NCBI GenBank assembly: GCA_035457425.1
Contig: DATIBR010000119.1
Span: 1-46,672 of the forward strand
Direction: 5' to 3'
Source: Terriglobales bacterium
GTDB taxonomy: Bacteria > Acidobacteriota > Terriglobia > Terriglobales > Acidobacteriaceae
Length of the DNA stretch: 46,672 nucleotides
In this document: one piece after another, positions 17,428-34,857 of the stretch
How positions within the stretch are numbered: the stretch's first letter is position 1
How the letters are laid out: every line of letters begins with the position of its first letter
Position numbers and translations under genes: made by a program
The notes under the pieces: generated by a model
Database searches by the model: none
The model's input: the letters and a program-made list of their open reading frames with translations, nothing else
What the model was told of the DNA's origin: nothing

Positions 17428-17504
17428 TTGACTCATTTTGAGAATCCACATAAGTTTCAGGTTCTCCCCCAACAATCGAGCCCGTCTCACCGATGCCCGT
17501 CTCA
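17428..17504 (+). promoter_or_regulatory. Possible sigma-70 promoter and half-sites at the kinase start
   Basis: TTGACT (17428-17433) and a weak TAAGTT (17451-17456) with a 17-bp spacer could drive the kinase operon; no GG-N10-GC element faces this way. Two direct copies of CCCGTCTCA (half-sites GTCTCA at 17484-17489 and 17499-17504, 15 bp apart) flank the ATG at 17493. That suggests autorepression. Confidence 0.4.
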
Positions 17505-20500
17505 GGCAGAACGACCGCCGATGCCGCCGCGCCCGTCTTCCAGGAGGCGTTGCTGCGTTTCTCCGCGGCGGTGGCGGAGGGCGGCGACTTCCAGCGGCTG
17601 ATCCGATTGTTCTGCGAGTCGGCGAAAGAGATCTTCGAAGTCTCGGGCGCCTACTACTGGCGACTGGACGAGAACGAGCGCCTTGTCGCGGTCGACGCCG
17701 AAGGGCGGATGGCGGCGGAGTTCCTGGCGGCGACGCTGGAGCTGCACGAGAGCGCGGTCGCGACGGAAGCGGTGCGCGACCGGCGCACGGTCTTCGTGAA
17801 TGACGTGGTTGCCGAGCGCTATCCGATGGCCGGACGCTTCGGTGCGCGCGCGATGCTGGCCGCCCCGCTGGTGGTGAGCGGGGAAGTCGTGGGCGTCACG
17901 GTGCTGCTGCACGACGGCAGGGGCGACTACTTCAACGAAGACCTCGCCGCGAAGGCGACGATCCTGGCGACGCAGCTCGGCAGCATGGCCGAGATCGCGC
18001 GGCTGCGCGAGTCGTCGTTGGAAGAGCGCGAGCGCGCGGTGCAGCTCATCGAGCTGACGCAGGCGCTGCAGTCCAGCCTGGACCCGGCCACCATCCACCA
18101 ACTGCTGGTGACGCGGGTCCGCGATCTGTTCGGCGCGGCGCTGGTAGCCCTCTACCTGCCGGAAGAGAAGACGCTGTTCCCGAAGGCGGTGACGGCCGAC
18201 GGTCCTCCGAGCCTGGCGGCGGCGCAGGCGGAGACCCTGGCGCATGCGGGAGGGGAGCGGCTCGCGGCCACGACGGGCAGCGAATTGCCGGCGGCGATCC
18301 GGTTCGACCGCGGGCTGCGCAGCGGCGCCGTGCCCTTTGAAGAGGCATTGGCGGTGCGCATCCGGACCGCGCGCGACTACGGCGTGCTGCTGGTGTGTTT
18401 CGCGCCCGGGGCGCAGGTGCGCGGGCGCGCGTTCCGGCTGCTCGGGTCGCTGGCGAACTCGGTCGGCCTGATCCTGGCGAACGCGGAACTGTATTCGACG
18501 ACCGAGCAGCATCGCAGCAGAGCCGAGAACCTGGTGAAGCTGGCGCTGGAGCTGAGCTCGTCGCTGAACCTGCCGGGATTCGTGCAGAGCTTCAGCTTGC
18601 GGGCGGCGGCGATGCTGGGGGCGCGCGGCGCCGGCCTGGTGCTGGCGCAGGGCAGCGCGCTGGAGACGATATTCCTGAAGACCGAGGCAGGCGACGATCG
18701 GGGATTGCCGCGGCAGCTGAGCGCCGCGATGGGGCAGCACGCGGCGAACCGCACGGAATCGATCGCGGCGGGCCGCGCGGCGGAGCTGCTGGGACCCAAG
18801 CTGGCGGCCGCCTTGCGCTGGAGCGATGCTTGCGTGGTGCGGCTCGTCGGCGCTTCCAACGAGTTCCTCGGCTACCTTTGCCTGGGCGACCTGAGGCGCA
18901 CCTGGTCGGAGGAAGACCGCGAGCTGCTGCGCGCGATCGCGGGACACGTTTCGGTGGCGCTCGAGAATTCGCGCCTGTTCACGCGCATCGCGCAATCAAA
19001 CAAGCAGTGGGCGGAGATCTTCGACGCGATCTCCGACTTCATCGTGGTGCACGACCACGCGAACCGCGTGCTGCGCGTGAACCGGTCGCTGGCCGAGTAC
19101 CTGGGCGGGCAGCCGTCGGAGCTGATCGGGGTGGGCATGCGGGCGCTCGGCTCCATCACGGCGGGGTCCTCGGAGCTGCCGTGCCCGTTCTGCCGCGCCG
19201 GCATGGAATCGGCGGATGAATACATCCATCCGGTGCAGGAGCGCACGTACCTGGTCTCGACTTCGCGCATGCGCGGGGCGCTGAACGAAGGCACGCAGAC
19301 CATTCACGTGCTGAAAGACATCACCGAGCGCCGCGAGGTCGAGCGGCGTTACCGCGAGCTGTTCGACAACACGCAGGAAGGCATCTTCTTCTCGACGCCG
19401 GAAGGGCGGTTCCTCGAGGTCAACGACGCGCTCGTGCGGATGCTGGGGTATGCGTCACGCCAGGAGCTGCTCGAGCTCGATATCTCCTCGCGGCTCTACC
19501 TGCATCCCGACGACCGCGAGCGCTTCCGCAAAGCCATCGAAGAGCGGGGCATGGTGCGCAACTACCAGGAGGTGCTGCGGCGCAAGGACGGCACGCTGGT
19601 GCACACCCTGCAGAACAGCTTCGCGGTGCGCGATTCGAGCGGCAAAGTGACGCAGTACCGCGGGATGATCCTCGACATCACCGAACTGAAGACATTCCAG
19701 TCGCAGCTGCTGCACGAGCGCGATTTCAACAGCAAGATCCTGAACAACACGCAGAGCATGATCCTGGTGTCGGACACCGCCGGGCTGATCAGCTACGCGA
19801 ACCGGCGGTGCTTCGATTCCGGGGGCTTCAAGGAGAGCGAGCTGCTGGGCAACCGGCTGGTGGACCTGGTCGCGCCCTCGCGCCGCAAGAAGTTCGAAGA
19901 GGCGTTCGACGCGGTCATCGGCGGGCAGCAGGTCGACAACCTGGAGCTTCCGATCCAGCGCGCGAGCGGGAAGCTCGGGCACTTCTCGGTGAACCTGAGC
20001 CCGATGCGGGACGAGCAGTCGAACGTGACCAGCATCGTGGCCGTGATGACGGACATCACCGACGCGGCGCTGCTGAACGCGAAGCTGGTGCACGCGGAAA
20101 AGATGGCGGCGGTCGGACAGCTCGTCTCGGGCGTGGCACACGAGGTCAACAATCCGCTGACGGCCATCCTGGGATTCGCGGACCTGATGCTGGAGCAGCA
20201 GGAGATCCCGGATTCCGCGAAGAAGGACCTGCAGATCATCGTGCAGGAGGCGCAGCGCACGCGGCAGATCGTGCAGAACCTGCTGAGCTTCGCGCGCCAG
20301 ACGCCGGCGGAGCGCAAGCCGGTCGACCTCAACGAGATCCTGCGCCGCACGCTGAAGCTGCGGGCCTACGACTTCTCCAGCCACGGCATGGACGTGGTCG
20401 AGCGCTACGACGAGAAGCTGCCGGCGGTGATGGGGGACGCGCACCAGCTGCAGCAGGTGTTCCTGAACATCGTGAACAACGCGTACGACGCGGTGCGCGA

Positions 20501-20792
20501 GGCCGACCGCCGCGGCCGCATCGAAGTGGTGACGGCGAAGGTGAACGGCAGCGGCGTCGAGGTGCGGTTCATCGACAACGGTACCGGCATCGCGCATCCC
20601 GACCGCATCTTCGATCCGTTCTTCACGACCAAGGAAGTGGGCAAGGGGACCGGGCTGGGGCTGAGCATCTGCTACGGGATCCTGCGCGAGCACGGCGGCG
20701 AGATCGGGTGCCAGAACAACGGCGAGCAGCCGGGCGCGACGTTCATCCTGCGGCTGCCGGTGGCCGCAAAGGTCGAAGGAGCGTACGCATGA
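17493..20792 (+). CDS. Soluble NtrB-like sensor histidine kinase, 3 GAF + 3 PAS domains
   Basis: A 1099-residue kinase without membrane segments. Three GAF-like regions (~15-175, ~185-335, ~345-500) are followed by three PAS domains (~505-612, ~615-735, ~740-860). The first PAS contains a CPFC pair (564-567) that might bind metal or be redox-active. HisKA has H883 in GVAHEVNNPLTAILG. The ATPase domain has the N-box IVNNAYDA (~994), DNGTGI (~1028) and GTGLGLSICYG (~1052). The H-box is of NtrB type, fitting a partner sigma-54 activator. The ATG at 17493 has no clear ribosome binding site but no earlier start fits. Its stop overlaps the next gene (ATGA). The signal is cytoplasmic and unknown. 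Confidence 0.92.
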   Translation: MPVSGRTTADAAAPVFQEALLRFSAAVAEGGDFQRLIRLFCESAKEIFEVSGAYYWRLDENERLVAVDAEGRMAAEFLAATLELHESAVATEAVRDRRTVFVNDVVAERYPMAGRFGARAMLAAPLVVSGEVVGVTVLLHDGRGDYFNEDLAAKATILATQLGSMAEIARLRESSLEERERAVQLIELTQALQSSLDPATIHQLLVTRVRDLFGAALVALYLPEEKTLFPKAVTADGPPSLAAAQAETLAHAGGERLAATTGSELPAAIRFDRGLRSGAVPFEEALAVRIRTARDYGVLLVCFAPGAQVRGRAFRLLGSLANSVGLILANAELYSTTEQHRSRAENLVKLALELSSSLNLPGFVQSFSLRAAAMLGARGAGLVLAQGSALETIFLKTEAGDDRGLPRQLSAAMGQHAANRTESIAAGRAAELLGPKLAAALRWSDACVVRLVGASNEFLGYLCLGDLRRTWSEEDRELLRAIAGHVSVALENSRLFTRIAQSNKQWAEIFDAISDFIVVHDHANRVLRVNRSLAEYLGGQPSELIGVGMRALGSITAGSSELPCPFCRAGMESADEYIHPVQERTYLVSTSRMRGALNEGTQTIHVLKDITERREVERRYRELFDNTQEGIFFSTPEGRFLEVNDALVRMLGYASRQELLELDISSRLYLHPDDRERFRKAIEERGMVRNYQEVLRRKDGTLVHTLQNSFAVRDSSGKVTQYRGMILDITELKTFQSQLLHERDFNSKILNNTQSMILVSDTAGLISYANRRCFDSGGFKESELLGNRLVDLVAPSRRKKFEEAFDAVIGGQQVDNLELPIQRASGKLGHFSVNLSPMRDEQSNVTSIVAVMTDITDAALLNAKLVHAEKMAAVGQLVSGVAHEVNNPLTAILGFADLMLEQQEIPDSAKKDLQIIVQEAQRTRQIVQNLLSFARQTPAERKPVDLNEILRRTLKLRAYDFSSHGMDVVERYDEKLPAVMGDAHQLQQVFLNIVNNAYDAVREADRRGRIEVVTAKVNGSGVEVRFIDNGTGIAHPDRIFDPFFTTKEVGKGTGLGLSICYGILREHGGEIGCQNNGEQPGATFILRLPVAAKVEGAYA

Positions 20793-21187
20793 CGACGAAA
20801 GCCGCGGGTGGAAAGCTGCCGGTACTGGTCGTCGAGGACGAGCCGTCGGTCATGTCGTTCCTGCAGGCCGCGCTGGAGCGCAAGGGCTACAGCGTGGTGA
20901 AGGCGACCTCCGGGGTGGAGGCGCTGAAGTTGCTGGCGAGGGGCGAGTTCCTGGGCGTGATCACCGACATGCGCACGCCGGGCGGGGTGAGCGGCGCCGA
21001 CGTGCACGCGTGGGTGAAAGCGAACCGGCCGCAGCTTGCCGACCGCGTGATCCTGGTGACCGGCGACACCGTGAATGAAGAGACCGTGGCGATCCTGCGC
21101 AACACACAAGCGCCGGTCGTGGAGAAGCCGTTCCGCGTGCAGCAGTTGCTGCAGGTGGTCGAGCAGATCCTGGGGAAGGCAGTATGA
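20789..21187 (+). CDS. Single-domain response regulator
   Basis: A 132-residue receiver: acidic residues in VVEDEPS (15-18), acceptor D60 in GVITDMRTPGGVSG, T in VTGDT, K in VVEKPFR. There is no output domain. Start and stop overlap the kinase and the sigma-54 activator by 4 nt each (ATGA), so the three are co-translated. It may act as a phosphate sink or relay step between the kinase and the activator. Confidence 0.9.
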   Translation: MTTKAAGGKLPVLVVEDEPSVMSFLQAALERKGYSVVKATSGVEALKLLARGEFLGVITDMRTPGGVSGADVHAWVKANRPQLADRVILVTGDTVNEETVAILRNTQAPVVEKPFRVQQLLQVVEQILGKAV

Positions 21188-22632
21188 CTGAAGATTTTCG
21201 CGTCCGTTTTCTGATCGTGGATGACCAGCAGAGCATCCGCAAGCTGTGCATGACCATCGGGAGTTCGCTGGGCTTCGTGTGCGCGGAGGCGGAGAGCGCG
21301 GAAGACGCGCTCGCGCACCTGGAGTCGAACGCCGCCGACATCGTGCTGGTCGACCTGAAGATGGCCAACATGGGCGGCCTGGAGTTCCTCGACACGCTCA
21401 AGAAGATGCTGCCGCGCACGGAAGTGGCGATCATGACCGGCTATGGCTCGGTCGAGACGGCGGTGCAGGCGATGAAACTGGGCGCCTATGACTACATCAC
21501 CAAGCCGTTCCGCGTGGAGGAGATGAAGCTGGTGCTGCAGCGAATGGCGGAGAAGGTCCGGCTGGTGGCGGAGAACCAGTTTTTGCTGGAGCAGGTCCGC
21601 ACGCAGATGGAGCTGAACGGGATCGTCGGGACGTCGGCGCGGATCCAAGACGTGCTGCGGATGGTCGCGCGGCTGAAAGACACGCGCACGCCGGTGCTCA
21701 TCACGGGCGAGAGCGGGACGGGCAAGGAACTGGTGGCGCGCGCCATCCACTTCGGCGGCGTGTACGCGAAGCGCCCGTTCGTCGCGGTGGATTGCGGGTC
21801 GCTGGTGCCGACGCTGATCGAGAGCGAGCTGTTCGGCTACGAGAAGGGCGCGTTCACCGGCGCGCTGCGCACCAAGGCCGGCCTGTTCCAGGCGGCGGAC
21901 GGCGGCACCATCTTCCTGGACGAGATCGGCGAGCTGCCGATGGAGATGCAGGCCAAGCTGCTGCGCGTGCTGCAGGAGAAAGAGGTGCGTCCGGTCGGCA
22001 GCAACCAGAAGATCCGCGTGGATGTGCGCGTGATCGCGGCGACCAACCGCGATCTGGAGACCGCGTACAAGAACGGGACGTTCCGCAAAGACCTTTACTT
22101 CCGCCTGAACGTGGTCACGCTGCACCTCGCGGCGTTGCGGGAGCGGAAGTCCGATATCCCGACGCTGGTGCGGTGGTTCCTGGGCCGGTTGGCGCCCAAC
22201 CTCGGCATCCAGGTATCCAACGCGGCGATGAATTGCCTGCTCAATTACGAGTGGCCGGGGAACGTGCGCGAGCTGGAGAACTGCATCGAGCGCGCGGTCG
22301 CGCTGGGGAACGAGACGCTGATCGACGTCCGCGACCTGCCGCCGGCGATCCAGGCGGCCAGCACCATGCCACTGGCCTCCCACTTGGGCAGGGAAAAGAC
22401 GGCATCGATCTCCGCTCGTGGGGCAGTCAACGCCAGCGAGCCCGGGATGCCGTCGATGGATCTGGAGGAGATGGAGCGCGCCACCATCCAGCGTGTGTTC
22501 GACCAGGTCGGCGGCGACAAGAACCTGGCCCGGGAGATCCTCGGCATCAGCCGGGCGACCCTATATAGAAAGATCAAGCGGTACAACATCCGGGTCGGAG
22601 CGCAGGCGGAGAGCGCGGTCGCCAGCCACTAG
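21184..22632 (+). CDS. NtrC-family sigma-54 transcriptional activator
   Basis: A 482-residue activator. The receiver has D57 in [13 protein letters not shown] and K in ITKPFRVEE. The AAA+ domain has Walker A GESGTGKE (175-182), the sigma-54 contact loop GAFTGA (222-227), Walker B GTIFLDE (241-247) and arginine-finger region [11 protein letters not shown]. The C-terminal Fis-type HTH is at ~435-472 ([21 protein letters not shown]). All parts needed to remodel sigma-54 holoenzyme are present. Three sigma-54 promoters with a shared inverted repeat lie nearby (17.2, 22.7 and 25.6 kb), so it is the likely regulator of both chemosensory operons and the PilZ unit. Confidence 0.94.
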
Positions 22633-22881: not shown

Positions 22882-23247
22882 GTGCGAGGAAGATTCGTGG
22901 GACAGCATGTCGCGGTTGCGTCATCGACTGCGGGCGAAGGCTCCGTGGCGCGCCTGGCGCAATTCTTTCCTGAAGCGGTCGCGGTGCGCATCCCGGTGCG
23001 GATCACCGGGACGGGCCACCGTGGTCGGGAGCTTTCCGAGCAGACGCTGATCGAGTACGGCACGGCGCAAGAGGTTCTGTTCGCCTCGAGCCAGCCGCTG
23101 GAGTTCGAGGAGCGGCTGCGACTGGAGAACGCCGACGGCAGCCTGCGCGCGGAGGCGGCTGTCGTCGCAGTGCAATATCACAACGGACGAACGGCCGTGG
23201 CGGCGCGGTTCACCGCGAAGCCGGCGAATTGGATCATCCAGCCATGA
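22882..23247 (+). CDS. PilZ-like domain protein
   Basis: A 121-residue protein. AVRIPVRITGTGHRGRELSE, then EYGTAQEVLFASSQPLEF and LRAEAAVVAVQYHNGRTAVAARF follow the beta-barrel pattern of short PilZ proteins. The c-di-GMP ligands (RxxxR and [DN]-x-S-x-x-G) are not intact, so it is probably a non-binding or divergent member. GTG 22882 has GGAG about 6 nt upstream; GTG 22897 with GAGGA upstream is an equally possible start (116 aa). Its stop overlaps the next start (ATGA). It is the first gene of a three-gene unit behind a sigma-54 promoter. The fold call is tentative. Confidence 0.6.
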   Translation: MRGRFVGQHVAVASSTAGEGSVARLAQFFPEAVAVRIPVRITGTGHRGRELSEQTLIEYGTAQEVLFASSQPLEFEERLRLENADGSLRAEAAVVAVQYHNGRTAVAARFTAKPANWIIQP

Positions 23248-24797
23248 GCACCGCAACCGCAACAGCACAAACGAACGAGATTGCCGCGCAGTGGCGACTC
23301 GCGCGGCAGATTTACCCGGTGTACGCGGCTGCCATCCGGCAGCACGGCGTGGCGCTCGAGCCCTCGCGCGACCTCGAGTACCCGGTGGACCGGAACGAGC
23401 CCGAGGCCATCGCGCGCGTGCAAGAGTGGTTCGCGAGCGCGGACAAGAAGGTCGAGGTCTGGCACCTGCGGCAGGTGCTCCAGACCTCGGAAGTCTCGAC
23501 CGAGCCGGTATTGCGAGCGCTGGTCGCACGTTTTCTCGAGCAGGAAGAGCGGAGCGACAGCGACCGCGACAAGGTCGATTTTCTGCTGGCGCAGTATTTC
23601 TTCCAGTGCGCGCCGGCGAAGCTGCACCAGACTGAGCCGACGCTGGATGACGTGGCCGAGGTCCTGGGGCCGGTGCTCGGGGAGTCCATCCCGGAGGCGC
23701 CGAGCTGGCTGGCGCCGCTCGATGAGGTACTGGCGGAGCTGAAGCAGTGCGAATCGCTCAGCGACATGCTGGAGCGGAACCTGCTGGCCCGCGCGCGGAA
23801 ACTCAAGACGGAATCCGGACCGAAGTTCTTCGGCTCGAGCGCGCTGCTCACCTTCACGCGCTTCAACATCCTGGTGCGCGGAGCGTTCGTGCGGCTGATC
23901 CAGGGAGACCTGCACGCCATCCGCTTTGCCTTGCACGCGCTCGAACAGCGCGGCCAAGCGATGTTCGACTGCTCGAGCGTCGGTCTCGGCAAGCAGGAGA
24001 CCTCCGATCACTTGCGCCAGTTCTGCCACGAATGGAAGGCGCTGTTCCGCCGGCAGTACAGCTCCGGCCAGTCGTTCCAGCAGTTGATCAAGCTGCGGGA
24101 ACTGCTGGAGGCCGCTCTGGAAGCGCCTGCGCCGGTGGTGGCCGAGGCTGAGCCGGAACCGCAGCCCGAGCCCGTTGCGGAGAGCAAGCCCGACCCGGCG
24201 CCGGCGCCGGCCGAGGTCCAGGCCGAAGAACCGGTGGCGGACGCCAAGCGTCCGCCGGTGCCGCCCATTGTGCAGGTGGAAGTGGCGGCGGCCTACACGG
24301 CGCCGGCAAAGCCCGCGCCGGTGAAGATCGGCAGCAAGCCATTGCCGCCGCAGCCGAAGGCAGTCGCGGCGCCGACCGACGTGGACGGCTGCCTGGAGCT
24401 GATCGCCGAACAGCTGTTCCGCGACAGCGCGAAGAAGAGCACGGCGGTGACCGCGGTGACGGTCGCGGGCCACAAGCTGATGCTGTCGTCGTGGGAGGTC
24501 ACCGCGTTCGTGGAGGGCGGCGACGATGTGTCGGACGCGCTGCAGCGCGCGGTCGCGGCGCGGGCGTTGCTGTCGCGCGCGGTCGAAGAGCGCAAGGCCG
24601 GCAAGCCGCTCGATGCCGGACCGATGCTGGCGGCCGCGCACCAGGAAGCGGCGGCGCTGCAGGCGCAGATCGCGCACGCGAAAGAGAAGAAGAACATCGA
24701 TGGCGCCGTCAACCTGGCCGCGAGCGCGCGCCGCTTGATCGGCCTGATGGAAGAGATGGAGCACGGTCCAAAACCCCCGCAACGGAGCGCGCAGTGA
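23244..24797 (+). CDS. Unrecognised two-part helical protein with Pro/Ala/Glu linker
   Basis: A 517-residue soluble protein I cannot assign. Residues ~1-290 are helix-rich and rather acidic (AAQWRLARQIYPVYAAAIRQ, VEVWHLRQVLQTSEVSTEPV, FCHEWKALFRRQYSSGQSFQ). Residues ~291-385 are a low-complexity Pro/Ala/Glu linker (AEAEPEPQPEPVAESKPDP). Residues ~390-517 form a second helical part (VDGCLELIAEQLFRDSAKKS, AHAKEKKNIDGAVNLAASAR). It has no signal peptide or membrane segment. Both ends overlap neighbours by 4 nt (ATGA, GTGA), so it is made together with the PilZ-like and DHp proteins. Context suggests a scaffold or adaptor of the chemosensory machinery; this is inference. Confidence 0.75.
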   Translation: MSTATATAQTNEIAAQWRLARQIYPVYAAAIRQHGVALEPSRDLEYPVDRNEPEAIARVQEWFASADKKVEVWHLRQVLQTSEVSTEPVLRALVARFLEQEERSDSDRDKVDFLLAQYFFQCAPAKLHQTEPTLDDVAEVLGPVLGESIPEAPSWLAPLDEVLAELKQCESLSDMLERNLLARARKLKTESGPKFFGSSALLTFTRFNILVRGAFVRLIQGDLHAIRFALHALEQRGQAMFDCSSVGLGKQETSDHLRQFCHEWKALFRRQYSSGQSFQQLIKLRELLEAALEAPAPVVAEAEPEPQPEPVAESKPDPAPAPAEVQAEEPVADAKRPPVPPIVQVEVAAAYTAPAKPAPVKIGSKPLPPQPKAVAAPTDVDGCLELIAEQLFRDSAKKSTAVTAVTVAGHKLMLSSWEVTAFVEGGDDVSDALQRAVAARALLSRAVEERKAGKPLDAGPMLAAAHQEAAALQAQIAHAKEKKNIDGAVNLAASARRLIGLMEEMEHGPKPPQRSAQ

Positions 24798-25477
24798 ACC
24801 AGGACACTGTACTGATCATCGCCGACGAGGCCGAGTTCCCAAGGAACGTGATGGGCCGGTGGCAGGCCGAGCGCAAGGTGCCGGCTTTCACCCTGGTCGG
24901 CAGCGAGTCATGGAAGGGGGCGCGGCAGGCGTCGTACGACCTGGCGCTGGTCGGCGGGATCCGCAACGGGCGGCTCGCCATGGTGCTCGACTCGCTCGAT
25001 TCGTCTTCGTCTCCGACCATCTACGTGCCGGCGGACGACCAGTCGGCGTCGGCGATGCGCACCAGCCATCCGAAGCTCCTCATCCTGCCGCAGCACGACG
25101 GCTGGCTCGACGCCCTGATCCTGCTCTCCACCGAGGCGCTGCGGCATGCCGAGGCGGCCGCGCGCGCACGCCGGGCGGAAGAGGCTTCCTCGCAGGACCG
25201 CCGCCACGCCACGCTGGGACGCTACATGCTCGAGCAGCGCCACAGCATGAACAACGCGCTGACCTCGGTGCTAGGCAACGCCGAGCTGCTCTTGCTGGAA
25301 CCCGGGGCGTTGAACGCCGAGGTGCGGGAACAGGTCGAGACCATGCACTCGATGGCACTGCGGATGCACGAGATCATGCAGCGGTTCTCGTCGCTGGAGA
25401 GCGAGTTGGCCTTCGCTGAGAAAGAGTCTCAACGTGAGACGAAGGCGCAGTCTCAGCGCGCCGCGACGGGCACGTAG
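24794..25477 (+). CDS. Degenerate receiver plus HisKA-like dimerisation helix, no ATPase domain
   Basis: A 227-residue protein starting at GTG 24794, which overlaps the previous stop. Residues 1-112 follow a receiver pattern (TVLIIADEAEF, SYDLALVGGI, SPTIYVPADD, PKLLILPQHDGW), but the acceptor Asp position appears to be Gly. Residues ~137-205 are a HisKA-type H-box: LEQRHSMNNALTSVLGNAEL with candidate phospho-His H150, then a second helix (VETMHSMALRMHEIMQRF). No HATPase domain follows; the protein ends after a charged tail. This fits a histidine phosphotransferase of the Spo0B/ChpT kind, or a decoy. Its 3' end contains the activator site of chemosensory operon 2. Confidence 0.75.
   Translation: MNQDTVLIIADEAEFPRNVMGRWQAERKVPAFTLVGSESWKGARQASYDLALVGGIRNGRLAMVLDSLDSSSSPTIYVPADDQSASAMRTSHPKLLILPQHDGWLDALILLSTEALRHAEAAARARRAEEASSQDRRHATLGRYMLEQRHSMNNALTSVLGNAELLLLEPGALNAEVREQVETMHSMALRMHEIMQRFSSLESELAFAEKESQRETKAQSQRAATGT
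25426..25455. promoter_or_regulatory. Activator site (UAS): GTCTCAacgTGAGAC plus half-site
   Basis: GTCTCAACGTGAGAC (25426-25440) is a perfect inverted repeat, and a GTCTCA half-site lies at 25450-25455. It lies inside the 3' end of the preceding gene, about 120 bp upstream of the -24 element at 25559. Confidence 0.75.
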
Positions 25478-25637: not shown

Positions 25638-25997
25638 ATGAAGAAGATTCTGATCGTCGACGACTCGCAGGCCGAGATCAAGCTGATGCAGAGTGTGCTG
25701 CAGGCGGCGGGGTATTGGCCGGTGGCCATCAACGACCCGATGAAGGTCGAGCAGACCATCGAGAGCGAGCGGCCGAACCTGATCCTGCTGGACGTGGTGA
25801 TGCCGCAACGCAACGGCTTTCAGGTGTGCCGCGAGCTGAAGGCGAGCGCCCAGTACGGGCGCATCCCGGTCGTGCTGGTGAGCTCGAAGAACACCGACAG
25901 CGACAAGTTCTGGGCGAAGCAGCAGGGCGCCGACGATTACGTGGTGAAGCCGTGGAAGAAGGAAGCGCTGCTCGAGGTAGTGCAGCGCCTGGCGTAG
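25638..25997 (+). CDS. CheY/PilH-like single-domain response regulator
   Basis: A 119-residue receiver: VDDS (7-10), acceptor D52 in LILLDVVMPQRNG, SS switch in VVLVSSKNTDSDK, K in VVKPWKK. The block ...FWAKQQGADDYVVKPW resembles the PilG/PilH/FrzZ-type regulators of twitching systems more than flagellar CheY. GGAAAG precedes the ATG; the frame is open upstream to 25605, but MKKILIVDDS is the natural start. It is the first gene of operon 2. Confidence 0.9.
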   Translation: MKKILIVDDSQAEIKLMQSVLQAAGYWPVAINDPMKVEQTIESERPNLILLDVVMPQRNGFQVCRELKASAQYGRIPVVLVSSKNTDSDKFWAKQQGADDYVVKPWKKEALLEVVQRLA

Positions 25998-26001
25998 CGA
26001 G

Positions 26002-26523
26002 ATGCCGGAAGAGAATCCCCAACTCGAGCCGATGCAGGCGGAAGCAGACGGCGGAGCGATCCCGCCGGAGTTCGCCGAGCAACTGCCGGAGCACCAGTAC
26101 TGCGTGTTCCGCGCGGGACGCGAGCGCTTCTGCCTGTTGGTGCTCGACGTGGACGAAGTGGTGGAGTGGCCGCGGGTGACGCGGGTGCCGCTGGCGCCGC
26201 CGTTCCTGATGGGGGTGTTCAACCTGCGCGGCTCGATCGTGCCGCTGATCGACATCGCGTTCACCGAGGGCCGGCGCGCGGACCTCGCGCCCAAGCACGT
26301 GGTGGTGGCGCGGATGAAGGGCGAGGGCGACCGGGACGACCTGCGGCTGGGCATCGCGGCGGACGAAGTGATCGGCACCTACACCACCACCGACACGCTG
26401 CTGGTGGACGAGGCGCCGCGCGACGTGCCTCACTGCTGCGGCATGTTGCGGCACGAAGATCGTTTGGCGCTGGCTTTGGATCTGAAGCGCGTGACCGAGG
26501 CATTTCCGGTCGGCGTGATCTGA
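26002..26523 (+). CDS. cheW: CheW-domain coupling protein
   Basis: A 173-residue CheW domain with a ~30-residue acidic N-terminal extension. Typical blocks are [43 protein letters not shown] and [14 protein letters not shown]. It starts 4 nt after the cheY stop, with the ribosome binding site inside cheY. It is similar to PilI-type coupling proteins. It links the operon 2 MCP to its CheA. Confidence 0.9.
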
Positions 26524-26554
26524 GCACGAAAGTTCTGGGTTCTGGGAGGACGGT

Positions 26555-27979
26555 ATGAAAGGTCGGTTGAGTTCGACCATCTGGATGCTGGTGGCGATGA
26601 ACCTGGCGGGGATGTTCCTGGTCCTGCTGCTCGGGTACTGGGCGGGCGGCTGGGCGAAGGGCTTGCCCTTCCTGGACGCCTTCAGCATCAGCGACGCGGG
26701 CAAGGACCTGCTGGGCGCGTTGCTGGTGATCGCCATCGTCGGGATCGGCAGCGGCATCATGCTGGCGAACAAGGTGCTGACGCCGGTGAAGGAGCTGGTC
26801 GAGGTGTCGGAGAAGCTGGCGGCGGGCGAGTACCGCAGCGCGAAGGCCGACGTGCAGTCGAATGACGACTTCGGGCTGATCGCCGACAACCTGAACCGCT
26901 CGACCGAGCGGGTGTCGAAGGCCGTCTTCAACCAGGAGGCGCAGGAGACGCTGCAGCGCAGCGTGACCGAGTTCCTGACGATCACGAGCCAGATCGCGCG
27001 CGGCGACCTGACGCTGCGCGGCAAGGTGACGAACGACGCGCTCGGCAACGTGGTCGACTCCGTGAACTACATGCTCGACAACTTCGCGAAGGTGCTGGAG
27101 CGGGTGCGCAAGGCCGCCATCGACGTGAGCTCGAGCGCGAACGAGATCCTGCTTTCGGCCGAGGAGATGAGCCACGGCGCGAACCAGCAGGACCAGGAGA
27201 TCACGAACACGTCGTCGGCGGTGGAAGAGCTCACGGTCTCGATGAAGCAGGTGTCGAACAACGCGGAAGCGTCGGCGGAAGCCGCGCGGCGCGCGCTCGA
27301 CGCCGCGGAGCAGGGCAACCGCGCCGTGCGCGACACGCTGGAAGGGATGCAGCGCATCCGCGCGTCGGTGCAGGCGACGGCGAAGAAGATCAAGTCGCTG
27401 GGCGACCGCTCGCTGGAGATCAGCGAGATCATCAACGTGATCAACGACATCACCGAGCAGACGAACCTGCTGGCGCTCAACGCGGCCATCGAGGCGGCGC
27501 GCGCGGGGGAGGCGGGCCGCGGCTTCGCGGTGGTCGCCGACGAGGTCCGCAAGCTGGCCGAGCACTCGCGCAACGCCACCAAGGACATCGCGGCGCTGAT
27601 CAAGGCCATCCAGGCGGAGACGAACGAAGCGGTGGTCGTGATGGAGGAAGGCACCAAGGAAGTGGAAGTGGGGGCGCGGCTGGCGGACCAGGCCGGCAAG
27701 GCGCTGGAAGCCATCTCCTCGGTCGTCCGCCAATCGGCGGAGCTGGTGCAGGAGATCTCGCTCGCGTCGAAGCAGCAGGTGCGCGGCACGGAAGGCGTGG
27801 CGAACGCGATGCAGATCATCTCGAACATCACGCGGCAGACCTCGCAGGGCGCGCGCCAGACGGCGCGCACGGTGGAGAACATGGTGAAGCTCTCCGAGCA
27901 GTTGAACGAGGCGCTGTCGCAGTTCCGCGTCTCGGCGAACGCGGAGCGGGCGGACATGGCCGCCGCCGCGCGCCGGTAG
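26555..27979 (+). CDS. Methyl-accepting protein without periplasmic sensor domain
   Basis: A 474-residue protein. TM1 (~9-30) and TM2 (~52-72) are separated by only ~20 residues, so there is no external sensor domain. A HAMP-like segment ([20 protein letters not shown]) and a second HAMP-like helix follow, then the signalling domain with [20 protein letters not shown] and [15 protein letters not shown]. The pattern [20 protein letters not shown] resembles PilJ/FrzCD-type receptors. It is preceded by GGGAGGA. It probably senses from the membrane or cytoplasm, or through a partner, as in surface-motility systems. Confidence 0.93.
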
Positions 27980-28015
27980 ACAGAGAACGGTCAGCAGGCG
28001 TTTGCAGCGACGCAC

Positions 28016-28903
28016 ATGCTAGAGAAGAACAACCAAGCCGCCACCGTCTCGGACCACGAGTTGTCGGAGATCCGCGCGCTGATCGAGAAGCGCTCGGGCA
28101 TCCTGTTCGACAGCTCGCGCGAGCGCTTCTTTTCGACGCGCGTGCGCGAACACATGACGGCGAAGCGGCTGGCGCACGGGCTCGACCTGATCCGCGCGAT
28201 GAAGTCGTCGAACGTGGAGTACGACTCGCTGCTGGAGCGGCTGCTCACGCAGGAAACCTCGTTCTTCCGCTATCCCGACGTGCATGCCGCGCTCGAGCGC
28301 AAGGTGCTGCCCGAGCTGCACATGAAGAAGTTCTGGGAGAACCCGCGCTCGCTGCGCATCTGGAGCGCGGGCTGCGCCACCGGGGAGGAGCCGTATTCGA
28401 TCGCGATGTCCATCTGCGAGACGCTGGAGTTCGCCGAGGCGTGGAACATCCACATCCTGGCGACCGACATCTCGCGGCAGGCGCTGCAGGCGGCGGAGCG
28501 CGGCGTGTACTCGCGGCGCGAACTGGGGTCGATGGACCGCGCGCTGATCGAGCTGTACTTCTCGAAACTCGGCGACCAGTTCATGGTCAAGCCGAAGATC
28601 CGGAACATGGTGACGTTCGCGCCCATGAACCTCGCGCAAGTCGTCTACATGGGGCGCTTCGACTGCATCTTCTGCATGAACGTCCTGATCTATTTCTCGG
28701 ACGAGCGGCGGGCGCAGCTCATCCAGCGCTTCTACGAGTACCTCGAGCCGGGCGGCTACCTCTTCCTCGGGCACGCGGAATCGATCGCGAAGACGGGCGT
28801 GCAGTTCGAGGCGATCGTGCAGGGTGATTCGCTGTACTACCAGAAGCCGGCGGCGGGCGTGGGCAAGCGCGCGGCCGCGGCGGCCGAACAGGAGTCGGTG
28901 TGA
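28016..28903 (+). CDS. cheR: CheR-type methyltransferase
   Basis: A 295-residue protein with N-terminal helical domain (LLERLLTQETSFFRYPDV) and SAM-binding domain (LRIWSAGCATGEEPYSIAMS, ILATDISRQALQAAERG, FDCIFCMNVLIYFSDERRAQ, GGYLFLGHAESI). Its length and motifs are standard, unlike CheR of operon 1 with its insertion. No strong ribosome binding site precedes the ATG. Its stop overlaps the GTG of the following CheA gene. It methylates the operon 2 MCP. Confidence 0.94.
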   Translation: MLEKNNQAATVSDHELSEIRALIEKRSGILFDSSRERFFSTRVREHMTAKRLAHGLDLIRAMKSSNVEYDSLLERLLTQETSFFRYPDVHAALERKVLPELHMKKFWENPRSLRIWSAGCATGEEPYSIAMSICETLEFAEAWNIHILATDISRQALQAAERGVYSRRELGSMDRALIELYFSKLGDQFMVKPKIRNMVTFAPMNLAQVVYMGRFDCIFCMNVLIYFSDERRAQLIQRFYEYLEPGGYLFLGHAESIAKTGVQFEAIVQGDSLYYQKPAAGVGKRAAAAAEQESV

Positions 28904-31900
28904 GCGGGCCGGAACACGAATTCGTGGAGATCTTCCTGCAGGAAGCGAGCGAGCACCTGCAGTTCCTGCGGGAGTACTCCGGCATCCTGCAGGACCCGTA
29001 CCCGGTCCCTGAGGACCTGGAGCGGCTCTACATCTCGGCGCACACGCTGGCAGGGACGTCCGGCAGCTACGGCTACCCGCTGTTCGCCGAGGTCAGCGGC
29101 AAGCTGGCGCACATCTTCCAGTACGCGATGAACGCGACCATCGGCGCGGAAGCCGCCGGGCCGCTGGTGGAGTTCATCTCGGAAGCGATCGCGGTGCTGG
29201 AAAGCGACCTGCTGATGGTGAGCGCGAACGGCGTGGAGGCGGGCGAGGACATCGCGGCGTTCAAGCAGAAGTACCCGTTCGCGTTCCAGGCGCCGGAGGC
29301 GGTGCGGGAAGAGGCGGCGTACGTGGACGAGGTCGCGAGCGCGATGGAGACCGCGCCGGAAGAGGCCGCGCCGGTCGCCATCACCGAACTGCCGCAGGAC
29401 GGAGAGGTGCACGACGAGATCCTCGAGTTCTTCGTGCCGGAAGCCGAAGAGCACCTGCAAGTGGTGACCGAGTGCCTGCTGGCGCTCGAGGCGAACCCGA
29501 ATCCGGAAGACATCAACCGGCTGTTCCGCGCGATGCACACCATCAAAGGCGCGGCAGCGCAAGTCGGGCTGCTGCGCATCTCGCGCGTGGCGCACCGCGC
29601 CGAGGACCTGGTCGGCCGCCTGCGCGACGGGCAGCTGAAGCCCTCGGCCGAGATCGTGGACCTCTGCCTCGAGTCGGTCGATGTCCTGAAGAAGTTCCTC
29701 TATCGCCAGTGGCCGGACGAGCTGACGATGCAGGCGACGTTCCGGACGCTGATGCTGCGCATCGGGCGGCTTGCGCCGGAAGAAGAGGAAGAGGGCGCGC
29801 CCGCGCCGGCGGTGCAGCCGGTGGAGATCGCGCCGGCGGAGCAGCTGGCGGAGCCGGCGCCCGTTGCCGAGACGCTTCCTGAAGTCGCGGCGCCGATGCA
29901 CATCGAGCCCGCGCGGCGGGAGCTGGCGCCGGCAGCGCCAGCCGCGGAGGCAAAGGACGAGGAAGAGACCGTCCTGCGGCGCGAGCCCGTGGCGATGCCG
30001 CAGTCGAAGTCGGTGCGCATCGCGCTGGAGCGGCTGGACCGCATGATGAACGCGGTCGGCGAACTGGTCATCAACCGCACCCGCATGCTGGGCCGCGTCG
30101 CCGAGCTGGAGAAGCTGGCCGACGTGCTGAATTTCTCGAAGGCACGTATGTCCGACAAGGTGTCGGAGTTCACCGAGAAGCACGAGTTCTCGCAGCTCTC
30201 GACCTTGCAGACGAGGCCGAAGGCGGAGAAGGGGATCACGTTCGAATCGCCGTACCGCGGCGGCTACTCGAGCTACACACACTCCTACGATTCGTCGCTC
30301 GCCGAGTTCAGCGAGCTGGAGATGGACCGCTACGACGACTTCAACATCCTGTCGCGGTCGCTCTCCGAGATCTCCGCTGACATCACCGAGGTGCTGACGC
30401 AGCTCGACGGCTTCGTGCGCCGCGTGGATTCCGACATCGACGAGTTCACCAAGCTGGCGCACCGGCTGCAGGACGAGATCACGCAGGCGCGCATGGTGCC
30501 GATCGGGAACCTGTACACCCGCATCTCCCGCACGGTGCGCGACGCCGCGAAGGCGTCGAACAAGCAGGTGGAGCTGGCGCTCGCCGGCGCCGAGACCGAA
30601 CTCGACAACAACATCATCCAGCAGATCTCCGACCCGCTGGTGCACCTGGTGCGGAACTCGGTGGCGCACGGCATCGAGAAGCACGACGACCGCTACGCGG
30701 CCGGCAAGCCTGACCACGGCAACATCGCGGTGCGGGCCTACCATCGCGGCAACCATATCTACATCGAGGTCGAGGACGACGGGCGCGGCATCGACTACGA
30801 CCGCGTGCGCGCGACCGCGGTCGAAGCCGGACTCGTCAGCCAAGAAGACGCCGAGCGGCTCAGCGAGCGCGACCTGACCGACCTGCTCTTCCACCCGGGC
30901 TTCTCGACGGCGCCGCGCAAGACGGAGCTGGCCGGCCGCGGGGTCGGGCTCGACGTGGTGAAGGCCAACCTAAGCGCGCTCAACGGCGAGATCGAGGTGG
31001 AGACACAGAAGGGCCACGGGACGCGCTTCACCTTGAAGGTCCCGCTGACGCTCATCATCTCGCAGGCGCTGTTCGTGCGCTGCGGCGAGCACACCTTCGC
31101 GCTGCCCCTGGCGTTCGTCGAGGAGATCCGGCGGCTGCGCGCCGACGAGATCGAGGAAGTCGGCGGCAAGCTGCTGACCAAGGTGCGCGACGTGGTGACC
31201 GAGATCGTGCGGCTGGATGCGCAGCTCGGCCTGCCCGAGGTCGAGCCGGTGAACGGCTTCTACCGGCTGGTGCTGGTGAACGTGGCTGCGCGCCAGGTCG
31301 GCATCGTGGTGGAAGAGGTGCTCCGCAAAGACGAGATCGTGATCAAGAACCTGGGCGAGTACCTGCGGAACATGAAGATGTTCCCGGGCGCGACCATCGC
31401 GCCGGACGGCAGCCTGATCCTGCTGGTGGACGTGAACCGGCTGGTCGCGGGCGAGGCGGTGGAGCGGCGCCCGCTGATGGCGTCGCCGGTCGCGGCGCGC
31501 ATCTTCGCGCCGGGCGCGGCCGCGGTCGCCAAGGGAGAGATCCCGGCCGCCGCCATCGACGAGGTGGCGCCGGAAAAAGTGGTGGTACTCGCCGACGATT
31601 CCATCAGCGTACGCAAATTCGTGGGTCGCATGCTCGAGAAGGCAGGCTACCGCGTGAAACTTGCGTCCGATGGACTCGAGGCTCTCGAGATCGTCACCCA
31701 GACTCGCTGCGATCTGGTGGTGACCGATCTCGAGATGCCTCGTACGAACGGATACGAACTGATCGCCCACCTGCGGCAATCGCCGGAGACGCGCCACATC
31801 CCGGTGATGGTGGTCACTTCGCGGGCGGGCGCGAAGCACAAAGATAGGGCGATGCACGAAGGCGCGGCGGCCTTCCTCACCAAGCCGGTGCAGGAAGACC

Positions 31901-31971
31901 AGTTCCTGGCGGAGGTGGCGCAGTTGATCGGCGCGGCCGGTACGCAGGCGAAAGCGGCGGCCACGAGTTAG
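28900..31971 (+). CDS. Hybrid CheA (PilL/ChpA-like): two Hpt domains, kinase core, receiver
   Basis: A 1023-residue kinase. Hpt1 carries H48 (SAHTLAGTSGSYG, slightly degenerate) and Hpt2 carries H213 (MHTIKGAAAQVG). An Ala/Pro/Glu linker (~295-365) is followed by P3 (SVRIALERLDRMMNAVGELV, ~371). A ~60-residue insertion (415-480, Ser/Tyr-rich, YRGGYSSYTHSYDSS) lies within the dimerisation hairpin. P4 has HLVRNSVAHG (582-591), DDGRGID (626-632) and GRGVGLD (679-685). P5 is CheW-like (~722-850). The C-terminal receiver has D943 in LVVTDLEMPRTNG. This layout is like PilL/ChpA and FrzE. The GTG start overlaps the CheR stop. Confidence 0.94.
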   Translation: MSGPEHEFVEIFLQEASEHLQFLREYSGILQDPYPVPEDLERLYISAHTLAGTSGSYGYPLFAEVSGKLAHIFQYAMNATIGAEAAGPLVEFISEAIAVLESDLLMVSANGVEAGEDIAAFKQKYPFAFQAPEAVREEAAYVDEVASAMETAPEEAAPVAITELPQDGEVHDEILEFFVPEAEEHLQVVTECLLALEANPNPEDINRLFRAMHTIKGAAAQVGLLRISRVAHRAEDLVGRLRDGQLKPSAEIVDLCLESVDVLKKFLYRQWPDELTMQATFRTLMLRIGRLAPEEEEEGAPAPAVQPVEIAPAEQLAEPAPVAETLPEVAAPMHIEPARRELAPAAPAAEAKDEEETVLRREPVAMPQSKSVRIALERLDRMMNAVGELVINRTRMLGRVAELEKLADVLNFSKARMSDKVSEFTEKHEFSQLSTLQTRPKAEKGITFESPYRGGYSSYTHSYDSSLAEFSELEMDRYDDFNILSRSLSEISADITEVLTQLDGFVRRVDSDIDEFTKLAHRLQDEITQARMVPIGNLYTRISRTVRDAAKASNKQVELALAGAETELDNNIIQQISDPLVHLVRNSVAHGIEKHDDRYAAGKPDHGNIAVRAYHRGNHIYIEVEDDGRGIDYDRVRATAVEAGLVSQEDAERLSERDLTDLLFHPGFSTAPRKTELAGRGVGLDVVKANLSALNGEIEVETQKGHGTRFTLKVPLTLIISQALFVRCGEHTFALPLAFVEEIRRLRADEIEEVGGKLLTKVRDVVTEIVRLDAQLGLPEVEPVNGFYRLVLVNVAARQVGIVVEEVLRKDEIVIKNLGEYLRNMKMFPGATIAPDGSLILLVDVNRLVAGEAVERRPLMASPVAARIFAPGAAAVAKGEIPAAAIDEVAPEKVVVLADDSISVRKFVGRMLEKAGYRVKLASDGLEALEIVTQTRCDLVVTDLEMPRTNGYELIAHLRQSPETRHIPVMVVTSRAGAKHKDRAMHEGAAAFLTKPVQEDQFLAEVAQLIGAAGTQAKAAATS

Positions 31972-31974
31972 GCG

Positions 31975-33141
31975 ATGGCGTTTGACGGCAAGCGAATCCG
32001 GGTGTTGATCGTGGACGACTCGGCGTTCATGCGCAAGGTGCTGCAGAGCATCGTGAGCGCGGACCCGGCGCTGGAGGTGTGCGGCGAGGCGCGCGACGGC
32101 AAGGACGCAGTCGACAAGGTCGAGCAGCTCATGCCCGACGTGATCACGATGGACATCAACATGCCGCACGTCGACGGCTTGCAGGCGACGGAAGTCATCA
32201 TGTCGAAGAACCCCAAGCCGATCGTGATCGTGAGCTCGGAATCGCGCGACGGCGCCGACATCACGCTCAAGGCGCTGGAACTGGGCGCCATCGACTTCGT
32301 CGCCAAGCCCTCGAGCGGCATCGACCTCGACATGAACACGGTGCGCGAGGAGCTGGTGCGCAAGCTGAAGCTCGCGGCGAAAGTGCGCGTCGTCCGCACG
32401 GCGGTGCGCTCGAAGCTGCAGAGCGAGATCGCGAGCTCGGCGCCGCGCACCGAGCCGGCGCCGAAGCCGATCGCGGTGGCCGCCGCGGCTCCGGCGAGCA
32501 CCCGGCCCGCGCCCTCCGCCGCTCCCAACCTGTCGCGCACCAACGGCAAGTTCCCGGTCGTGGTGCTGGCGGCCTCCACCGGCGGGCCGCAGACGCTGAT
32601 GAACTTCATCCCGCGCTTCCCGGCGGGGTTTGCAGGCGCGGTGATCCTGGTGCAGCACATGCCGGGGAACTTCACCTCGCAGTTCTCCCAGCAGCTGGCG
32701 GAGATCGCCCAGATCAAGGTGAAGGAAGCGGAGCAGGGGGAATTGCTGCAGCCGAGCGTGCTCTACGTCTGCCCGGGCTCGCACCACCTGCGCGTCACGC
32801 AGACGGGGCGCATCACGCTCGACGACGGCCCGCGCATCTCGGGCTACCGCCCGTGCGCGGACGTGACGCTGGAGACGGTGGCGCAGTTCGCCGGGCCGAT
32901 GTCGATCGGCGTGGTGCTGACCGGCATGGGCAATGACGCGGCGCGCGGCGCGACGCTCGTGAAGGACGCGGGCGGCCACGTCATCGCGCAGGACGAAGCG
33001 ACGTCCATCATCTTCGGCATGCCCGCGGAAGCCATCAAGACCGGGGCGGTCGACCAGATCCTCCCGATCGACAACGTGTTCCACGCCATCGAGAAGCGGG
33101 TGCTCTACGTGTTCGGCGCCGCCAAGGTGGGTGCGCTGTGA
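31975..33141 (+). CDS. cheB: CheB-type methylesterase
   Basis: A 388-residue protein: receiver with D60 in VITMDINMPHVDG, an Ala/Pro linker (~150-188), and a catalytic domain with S199 (LAASTGGPQT), H226 (VQHMPGNFT) and D319 (TGMGNDAARG) all present. It starts 3 nt after the CheA stop. It is the second cheB in the window; the two share domain order but differ clearly in sequence, so they are not a recent duplication. Confidence 0.95.
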   Translation: MAFDGKRIRVLIVDDSAFMRKVLQSIVSADPALEVCGEARDGKDAVDKVEQLMPDVITMDINMPHVDGLQATEVIMSKNPKPIVIVSSESRDGADITLKALELGAIDFVAKPSSGIDLDMNTVREELVRKLKLAAKVRVVRTAVRSKLQSEIASSAPRTEPAPKPIAVAAAAPASTRPAPSAAPNLSRTNGKFPVVVLAASTGGPQTLMNFIPRFPAGFAGAVILVQHMPGNFTSQFSQQLAEIAQIKVKEAEQGELLQPSVLYVCPGSHHLRVTQTGRITLDDGPRISGYRPCADVTLETVAQFAGPMSIGVVLTGMGNDAARGATLVKDAGGHVIAQDEATSIIFGMPAEAIKTGAVDQILPIDNVFHAIEKRVLYVFGAAKVGAL

Positions 33142-33656
33142 AGCGCGTGGAGAAGAAGCCGCGCGGCCGGCACGAAGCGGTCATCCTGTTCGCCGTCGGC
33201 AACTACACCTTCGCCATCGCGGCGCAGGCGGTGGAAGAGATTCGCAATACGGATGGATTGAGGCCGCTGCCGGCGGGAGTCGCGACCGCGCGGCTGGCAA
33301 AGTTCAAGCACCTGCTGGAGCGCGACCGGAAGAGGTATTTCGTGGTGGATTCGAACCTGCACTTCCGGCTGTTCCCGTCGAAAGCGACGCGGCTGCTGGT
33401 GCTGCGCGAGTCGGCGGCGGCGGTGTTGGTGGACCACACCGAGCGCATCACCGAGATCACGTCGCTGCACGCGCTGCCGCGCGCGTTCGCGGGCGAGGAG
33501 CGCCAGTGGTACCGCGGCATCGCGATGATCCAGGAGCGCGTGGTGCCGGTCGTCGACCCGGCCGCGTTCATGTCGAAACCGGAGTTCACCGTGCTGCAGG
33601 CGGCCGTGACGGGCGCCGAGGCGGCCGCGAAAGGGAAGGGCGCCGCCACCGCATGA
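33138..33656 (+). CDS. Divergent CheW-like protein
   Basis: A 172-residue protein. AVILFAVGNYTFAIAAQAVEEI matches the first CheW subdomain, and RGIAMIQERVVPVVDPAAFM the later INLRG-type strand, but the glycine motif is replaced. It has a basic N-terminus (MKRVEKKPRGRHE) and an Ala/Lys tail. It could be a FrzB- or ChpC-like accessory coupling protein that links another input to the array. The GTG start overlaps the cheB stop (GTGA). Confidence 0.75.
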   Translation: MKRVEKKPRGRHEAVILFAVGNYTFAIAAQAVEEIRNTDGLRPLPAGVATARLAKFKHLLERDRKRYFVVDSNLHFRLFPSKATRLLVLRESAAAVLVDHTERITEITSLHALPRAFAGEERQWYRGIAMIQERVVPVVDPAAFMSKPEFTVLQAAVTGAEAAAKGKGAATA

Positions 33657-34078
33657 CCGCCAAGCCCAACTCGTTCGTGCTCTTCCCCATCGGCAAGAAG
33701 CGCTTCGCGCTGCCGGCGGCTGTGGTCACGGAGCTCGCTCGTCCGGACCGCGAGCAGAGCTTCCCGCACACGTCGAAGCTGCTGACCGGCGTGCTGATCC
33801 GCCGCGGCCACATCGTGCCGGTGTGCGACGTGGCGCCGGTGCTCGTCGGGCCGGACGCCCCCGCGCGCAAGTTCTTCCTCATCGCCACGCGCAAGTTCGC
33901 CGGCGCCAGCGAGTGGACCGCCATCCCGGTGACCGGCGAGTGCGAACTGGCCACCACCGAACTGCTGCCGCCGGCGGGCAAGCTGCCGAAGTACGTGATC
34001 GGACTGCTGTCGTTCGAGAACGAGATCGTGGAAGTGATCGAGCTGGAACGCCTGATCGGGACGGAGGCCGCGGCATGA
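33653..34078 (+). CDS. Second divergent CheW-like protein
   Basis: A 141-residue protein. SFVLFPIGKKRFALPAAVVTELA, TGVLIRRGHIVPVCDVAPVL and YVIGLLSFENEIVEVIELERL give a short CheW fold. It overlaps both neighbours (ATGA). With the CheW at 26002 and the one at 33138, operon 2 has three coupling-type proteins for a single CheA, a feature of Pil-Chp and Frz systems. Confidence 0.8.
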   Translation: MTAKPNSFVLFPIGKKRFALPAAVVTELARPDREQSFPHTSKLLTGVLIRRGHIVPVCDVAPVLVGPDAPARKFFLIATRKFAGASEWTAIPVTGECELATTELLPPAGKLPKYVIGLLSFENEIVEVIELERLIGTEAAA

Positions 34079-34857
34079 ACGCCCCCACCCAGGCGACGAT
34101 GGCGCCCAAGATCCTGGTGATCGACGCGAACGTGTTCTTCGCCAAGCGGCTGGCGGACGCGCTGAAGAAAGAAGGCTACGAGGTGAACCACGCGACCGCC
34201 TCGGCGTTCGCGCTGACCTCGCTGGAGTGGGACACGCCGGCGGCCATCCTGTGCGCGACGAACCTGCGCGAGATGGGCGCGTTCGACCTGCCGAAGATCC
34301 TGCACGCCGACATCAAGACGGCGCACATCCCGATCATCGCAGTGGGCGACGGCGGCGACCAGGCGCTGATGGAGGCGTTCCGCGCGGGCTGCGACGACTA
34401 CATCGACCGGCGCGTGGGTCCGGAATCGATCGCGTCGCACGTGCGCAGTTTCCTGCGCTCGCACGAAGAAGGCTTCCAGCCGACGCAGATGCTGACCACC
34501 ACGGAGACCGCGCTGAGCGGATCGCTCTCGCACCTCGACCTGCCGGGCGTGGTGCAGATGCTCACGCACTCGCGGCAGACCGGCGCGCTGCACGTGAACG
34601 CCGGCACGCTCGACGGGATCATCTTCTTCGACGGCGGCGACGTGTCGCACGCCGAAGCGGGCGACATGATCGGCGACGACGCCGTGGTCCACATCGTGAA
34701 GAACTGCAACAACAGCGAAGTCGGAGTCTACAAGTTCGTGCCGGGCGCGACCGCCGCGACCCGGACCGTCCTGCGCTCGGCCACGGAGCTGATGCTCGAC
34801 GCGCTGCGTGAGATCGACGAGAGCGAGCACGGCGCGGCCGAAGGAGAACTGCAATGA
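34075..34857 (+). CDS. Pseudo-receiver plus PATAN (DUF4388) domain protein
   Basis: A 260-residue protein. Residues ~10-125 are receiver-like (KILVIDANVFFAKRLADALK) but lack the key residues: the acceptor position in AAILCATNL is Ala (A61) and the usual Lys of the KP motif is Arg (DRRVGP). Residues ~145-250 match the PATAN/DUF4388 domain (GSLSHLDLPGVVQMLTHSRQ, TGALHVNAGTLDGIIFFDGG). PATAN regulators control twitching and phototaxis (PatA family in cyanobacteria) and occur in Myxococcus. Here the receiver is probably a protein-binding module not controlled by phosphorylation. It overlaps both neighbours. Confidence 0.85.
   Translation: MNAPTQATMAPKILVIDANVFFAKRLADALKKEGYEVNHATASAFALTSLEWDTPAAILCATNLREMGAFDLPKILHADIKTAHIPIIAVGDGGDQALMEAFRAGCDDYIDRRVGPESIASHVRSFLRSHEEGFQPTQMLTTTETALSGSLSHLDLPGVVQMLTHSRQTGALHVNAGTLDGIIFFDGGDVSHAEAGDMIGDDAVVHIVKNCNNSEVGVYKFVPGATAATRTVLRSATELMLDALREIDESEHGAAEGELQ

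Follow-up and report, generated by a model that had tools for sequence, protein, structure and literature searches.

A kinase-stripped pseudo-receiver-DHp protein family in Acidobacteriota is a candidate brake on a neighboring NtrC-type module

We found that DHP, a 227-residue protein encoded in a 46,672-nucleotide stretch of Terriglobales DNA (hereafter, the window), joins a pseudo-receiver to a HisKA-type DHp hairpin and lacks an ATPase domain. From the pattern of conservation in its family we propose, with a probability of roughly one in two, that DHP is a dedicated phosphatase, or brake, on the module formed by a GAF/PAS kinase, the single-domain receiver REC1 and an NtrC-type regulator, and that it would act on REC1~P, NtrC~P, or both. 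The genes and domains discussed here are as follows.

17493..20792, + strand: GAF/PAS sensor histidine kinase with a canonical H-box (HEVNNP) and an HATPase domain
20789..21187, + strand: REC1, a single-domain receiver with all phosphorylation residues (Pfam); candidate substrate or partner
21184..22632, + strand: NtrC-type sigma-54 response regulator (Pfam, co-occurrence with DHP); candidate substrate or partner
22882..23247, + strand: conserved 121-residue protein between the NtrC gene and the 517-residue gene; PilZ-like by eye
23244..24797, + strand: 517-residue protein (522 residues from a TTG at 23229), directly upstream of DHP in most relatives
24794..25477, + strand: DHP (open reading frame, Pfam, AlphaFold2)
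24794..25102, + strand: receiver-like domain of DHP, residues 1-103, without an acceptor Asp (AlphaFold2, Foldseek, alignment column counts)
25103..25468, + strand: signaling helix and DHp alpha-1 (residues 104-168) and alpha-2 (residues 175-225) of DHP (AlphaFold2; Pfam HisKA at 149-201)
25241..25255, + strand: H-box codons His150-Ser151-Met152-Asn153-Asn154 (sequence, family counts)
25638..25997, + strand: REC2, a CheY-like receiver and the first gene of the downstream che operon; alternative partner
26002..33141, + strand: che operon encoding CheW, an MCP, CheR, CheA (two Hpt domains and a REC) and CheB

DHP begins with a GTG codon, and its phospho-accepting-type histidine is residue 150. 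A first-pass annotation of this DNA had described a kinase-like DHp without an ATPase domain, fused to a degenerate receiver that lacks its acceptor Asp, and both points are borne out. The Pfam HisKA model (PF00512) matches residues 149-201 at 29.0 bits (cut-off 26.9, E = 1.1e-6), while the same scan returned neither an HATPase nor a Response_reg match and an NCBIfam scan returned nothing informative. All 23 family members in alignment A1 (DHP and 22 orthologs) match HisKA at E ≤ 0.1, and the Pfam scan found an ATPase domain in none of them. The AlphaFold2 monomer model, built from this 23-sequence alignment (mean pLDDT 86.7), has a receiver-like alpha/beta fold over residues 1-103, after which one unbroken helix spans 104-168; a turn then leads into the second arm, helix 175-225, of a DHp-like two-helix hairpin. 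The model ends with DHp alpha-2, with nothing beyond. At the end of beta-3, where the acceptor Asp would be expected, DHP has Gly54-Gly55, and D or E occurs at positions 54 and 55 in just 10 and 12 of 86 relatives; with the acceptor Asp absent, the domain is predicted to be unphosphorylatable.

A Foldseek search with the DHP model matched receiver domains, and the best PDB match was LvrB (8vc9, E = 2.5e-5), a Rec-DHp-CA hybrid kinase from Leptospira. In LvrB, as in DHP, Rec alpha-5 continues as the signaling helix into the DHp (PMC13269768). However, the Rec of LvrB can be phosphorylated (at D56), and LvrB is an active autokinase with a CA domain, whereas the Rec of DHP is dead and its CA domain is absent. 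A sequence search of the PDB yielded no useful relative, the top match being a de novo Rossmann design followed by weak matches to the RetS DHp.

Two trivial explanations for such a protein were rejected. A chance open reading frame is ruled out by the codon-position bias of real coding sequence, with 35/15/94 differences at the three positions between DHP and an 82%-identical relative. A truncated or pseudogenized kinase is ruled out by the 110 family members that could be aligned and by dN/dS values of about 0.04-0.23 in the pairs tested.

How widespread is DHP? Orthologs are present in 24 of 61 sampled genomes (its own genome counted; two orthologs are partial) and in 90 of 200 genomes from its own taxonomic family, the sampling behind these counts being mostly metagenome-assembled genomes. 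Many genomes from a second family of the class have them too, so DHP is an old, conserved family across two acidobacterial families. The named genome-collection records that contain DHP are acidobacterial and nearly all metagenome-assembled; the closest is a groundwater record labeled Candidatus Korobacter versatilis. We found no described equivalent of DHP in the open-access literature, as judged by titles and abstracts.

DHP travels with an NtrC-type module. Upstream of it in the window lie, in order, the GAF/PAS kinase, which is likely the upstream kinase of the module, REC1, the NtrC-type activator, the 121-residue protein and the 517-residue protein. Among the 68 related loci with at least 5 kb of upstream sequence, 54 have an NtrC gene (at least 60% identity) within 6.5 kb upstream of DHP and 54 have a homolog of the 517-residue protein; coordinates in these relatives are those of open frames rather than curated starts. 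Across the 61 genomes, DHP and the NtrC ortholog occur together in 22, DHP alone in 2, NtrC alone in 1 and neither in 36 (Fisher p = 3e-13, uncorrected for phylogeny), and in both DHP-only genomes the NtrC gene beside DHP is broken or at a contig edge. REC1 was found in 76 loci, and in every one, including those whose DHP has lost His150, its E, D, acceptor D and K are intact, together with a T or S. Translational coupling to the 517-residue gene, as first suggested, is plausible because the DHP GTG overlaps the TGA of that gene (GTGA at 24794-24797; 517 residues in its ATG form). The 517-residue protein has no Pfam match, and the 121-residue protein has no Pfam or NCBIfam match. A more distant homolog of the 517-residue protein is encoded elsewhere in the same genome (G000:C165:7776-8522).

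The H-box of the family departs from that of the adjacent kinases in a specific way. The first-pass annotation called it well preserved, which holds for His150 and for the Asn at H+4 but not for the acid at H+1 or the Pro at H+5, both gone family-wide. Among 110 DHP-family sequences, which are mutually related and hence not independent, His150 is kept in 101, Asn153 in 106 and Asn154, the H+4 residue, in 107, the remaining three (L117, L229 and L230) having Asp there; Thr157 is invariant (110/110). The H+1 position is acidic in only 3 of the 110 and is otherwise S, N, G, T, A or I (Ser151 in DHP), and Pro is never found at H+5 (0/110). The neighboring kinase in the same loci reads H-E-x-N-N-P in 54 of 54 cases, with V at x in 53. 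Thus, DHP lacks two features of a functional kinase, the HATPase_c/CA domain and the acidic H+1, and has the HisKA-type phosphatase feature, Asn at H+4.

His150 itself has been lost in two lineages. In genus g28, five members have S, T or I in its place, and a single event fits the tree (support 89/58); in g115, four members have Pro. The question of whether His150 is conserved among homologs, raised at first reading, is therefore answered by 101 of 110 sequences in the affirmative, with g28 and g115 as the only lineages that depart from it. In both lineages the copies without His150 retain the two Asn residues (153 and 154). Compared pairwise, these copies have dN/dS values of 0.13-0.23, versus 0.04-0.14 for His-bearing pairs, which indicates that both lineages are still under purifying selection. 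These counts suggest that neither His150 nor Asn154 is absolutely required and that loss of the H+1 acid and the H+5 Pro is general.

The roles of these positions have been dissected in bona fide kinases. Willett and Kirby (PMC3510030), working on CrdS and three other HisKA kinases, showed that kinase activity depends on the acid at H+1, which phosphatase activity can do without, and that phosphatase activity depends on the Asn or Thr at H+4. The CrdS variants E372A and E372G remain phosphatase-competent, and H371A mostly does: the half-life of CrdA~P is 2.6 min with CrdS H371A, 0.7 min with the wild type and 53.5 min without CrdS, whereas N375D has no significant phosphatase activity (PMC3510030). 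Since the family has lost the H+1 acid and kept the H+4 Asn, its sequence bears the mark of a DHp that is kinase-minus and phosphatase-plus, and in this respect it resembles the engineered E372A/G mutants of CrdS. By the same logic, the 3 of 110 members with Asp154 should be inactive, as CrdS N375D is. DHP further shares with NtrB/CrdS-type kinases the HisKA match, the His, an LT..LGNAELL core and an adjacent NtrC-type regulator; unlike them, it has no ATPase domain, acidic H+1 or H+5 Pro.

Can a DHp act as a phosphatase with no CA domain? An isolated DHp domain, from NtrB or from EnvZ, is sufficient for phosphatase activity and in vivo confers a constitutive phosphatase phenotype (PMC3510030), so a DHp-only phosphatase is feasible. 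However, the CA domain greatly increases that activity (PMC3510030), and the weaker activity of a DHp without it counts against our proposal. As we picture it, DHP would dimerize through its DHp into the usual four-helix bundle, and the phosphorylated receiver of REC1 and/or NtrC would dock on DHp helix 1, where the conserved T157-G161-N162 surface suggests a binding site. Asn154, aided by His150, would then position a water molecule for hydrolysis of the phospho-Asp. The pseudo-receiver may set the geometry of the dimer or bind a partner and would take no phosphate.

A possible but rather doubtful alternative, and the one favored by the first-pass annotation, is that DHP is a dimeric histidine phosphotransferase of the Spo0B/ChpT type, passing phosphate from the kinase to REC1, then to H150 and on to NtrC. 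The parts of a Spo0-like relay are all present, namely a kinase, a free REC1 with its phosphosite intact in 76 of 76 loci, a DHp protein without a kinase domain and a DNA-binding regulator, and this gene set also fits a phosphorelay. A phosphotransferase would also explain the conservation of His150, and classical Hpt domains do without an acidic residue next to the His. Nevertheless, His150 is gone from two lineages that are under purifying selection, and REC1 is intact in five of the His150-less loci; together these imply that phosphotransfer through His150 cannot be obligatory there. In addition, Asn154, the phosphatase residue, is conserved at least as well as His150. NtrB phosphorylates NtrC directly, and the GAF/PAS kinase could do likewise. 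What survives of the original suggestion is the CA-less DHp, the widespread H150 and the adjacency of kinase, REC1 and NtrC; the phosphatase signature, the H150-less lineages and the missing Spo0B/ChpT domain tell against it. In our judgment a phosphatase is no less likely than a phosphotransferase, because the H-box signature of DHP is one known to abolish kinase activity and keep phosphatase activity.

Spo0B of Bacillus and ChpT of Caulobacter resemble DHP in having a DHp hairpin whose His is not autophosphorylated from ATP, and their pathways resemble its setting in combining receivers with a DNA-binding regulator. Unlike them, DHP has an N-terminal pseudo-receiver, and their Pfam models do not match it: a Spo0B or ChpT (HPTransfase) domain was found in 0 of 23 members at E ≤ 0.1. 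Spo0B has a C-terminal ATPase-like domain, which is absent in DHP. So does ChpT (PMC3433190).

In two loci, L221 and L229, the kinase gene is followed directly by NtrC without REC1, and the H-box of DHP is altered (H to P and NN to SD, respectively). A link between loss of REC1 and decay of the H-box is only suggestive because H to P also occurs in L213, L214 and L226, which have REC1.

A second family bears on the choice between phosphatase and phosphotransferase. These A2 proteins, which are class-wide in Acidobacteriota (L192-L210 and L054-L057; for example, L194:5436-6065), are short, consist of a Rec-like domain and a DHp and have no ATPase domain. They share the architecture of DHP but, unlike it, retain a canonical H-box, which reads H-E/D-x-N-N-P in all 19 sequences. 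Profile alignment relates A2 to the DHP family with a probability of 99.3 over 188 columns, and an A2 model has a fuller receiver fold with the DHp hairpin (pLDDT 89.1). In most examined loci the A2 gene comes right after genes for NtrC and a hybrid kinase with a C-terminal REC; in L054-L057, from another family, it follows NtrC alone. This context suits a phosphotransferase, and we regard the A2 proteins as candidates for that role; such a neighbor for a related family also lends some support to the phosphotransferase reading of DHP. Tentatively, Acidobacteriota might have evolved two related CA-less Rec-DHp families paired with NtrC, with A2 serving as the phosphotransferase for hybrid kinases and DHP as a kinase-minus, phosphatase-plus enzyme. 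If this is true, DHP is a natural counterpart of laboratory separation-of-function mutants. A GAF/PAS hybrid kinase of 1163 residues with a C-terminal REC is also found in these bacteria (L159:2381-5869, oriented -, and G000:C56), with similar proteins in many relatives, and its DHp is among the closest kinase-DHp matches to DHP.

Another possibility, which we think unlikely, is that DHP is a pseudo-DHp with no catalytic role that sequesters phosphorylated receivers or partners with the kinase, so that it competes for docking but performs no chemistry. Loss of H150 in 9 and of N154 in 3 of the 110 sequences, with T157 and the docking surface preserved, is what such a protein might show, and its receiver domain is dead as well. 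However, most members keep H150 and N154 together, and this high joint conservation argues against such a role.

The gene downstream of DHP belongs to a che operon, and the region from 25638 to 35630 sits between DHP and uvrB (35839-37827, - strand) in the window. Among 70 related loci with downstream room, uvrB (- strand) lies less than 4 kb from DHP in 26, with CheR alone between them in 15 and no che gene in 11; loss of the che operon would leave such an arrangement. CheR is kept as the sole che gene in 17 loci, and loci with CheR or an MCP alone beside DHP have the appearance of leftovers from an operon since lost. We considered that the operon had been inserted between DHP and uvrB but dropped this idea since family f7 also has che there. 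The ancestor probably had the operon and some of family f1 lost it, because it lies next to DHP in all 20 loci taken from f7. That DHP outlives this loss points to the NtrC module as its essential partner. That DHP instead serves the CheA system, for example as a sink for CheY~P or a phosphatase with REC2 or the receiver of CheA as its substrate, is highly improbable: the che operon lies 3' of DHP in the window, in 25 of the 70 loci and in all 20 from f7, but DHP is retained at loci with CheR-only or MCP-only remnants, and 13 of the 24 DHP genomes have no CheA ortholog at 1e-150. The 11 of 61 genomes that do have this CheA all carry DHP. The link to the CheA systems drawn in the first-pass annotation is thus dispensable, with the NtrC ortholog present in 22 of the 24 genomes.

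Why would a cell keep a histidine kinase hairpin stripped of its kinase? DHP is probably a dedicated brake for the neighboring NtrC-type regulator; a relay step is the less likely role. HisKA matches without an ATPase domain are, as a caution, not always truncated kinases. The family offers testable contrasts for how a DHp divides phosphotransfer from phosphatase activity, both between the His and the H+4 Asn and between DHP and the A2 proteins with their canonical H-box. A stand-alone DHp from which evolution has removed the kinase capacity while sparing the phosphatase position would amount to a separation-of-function experiment on histidine kinases carried out by nature. It would also add a layer of control to NtrC-type signaling in the soil and groundwater Acidobacteriota that host DHP, among them abundant and little-studied soil bacteria.
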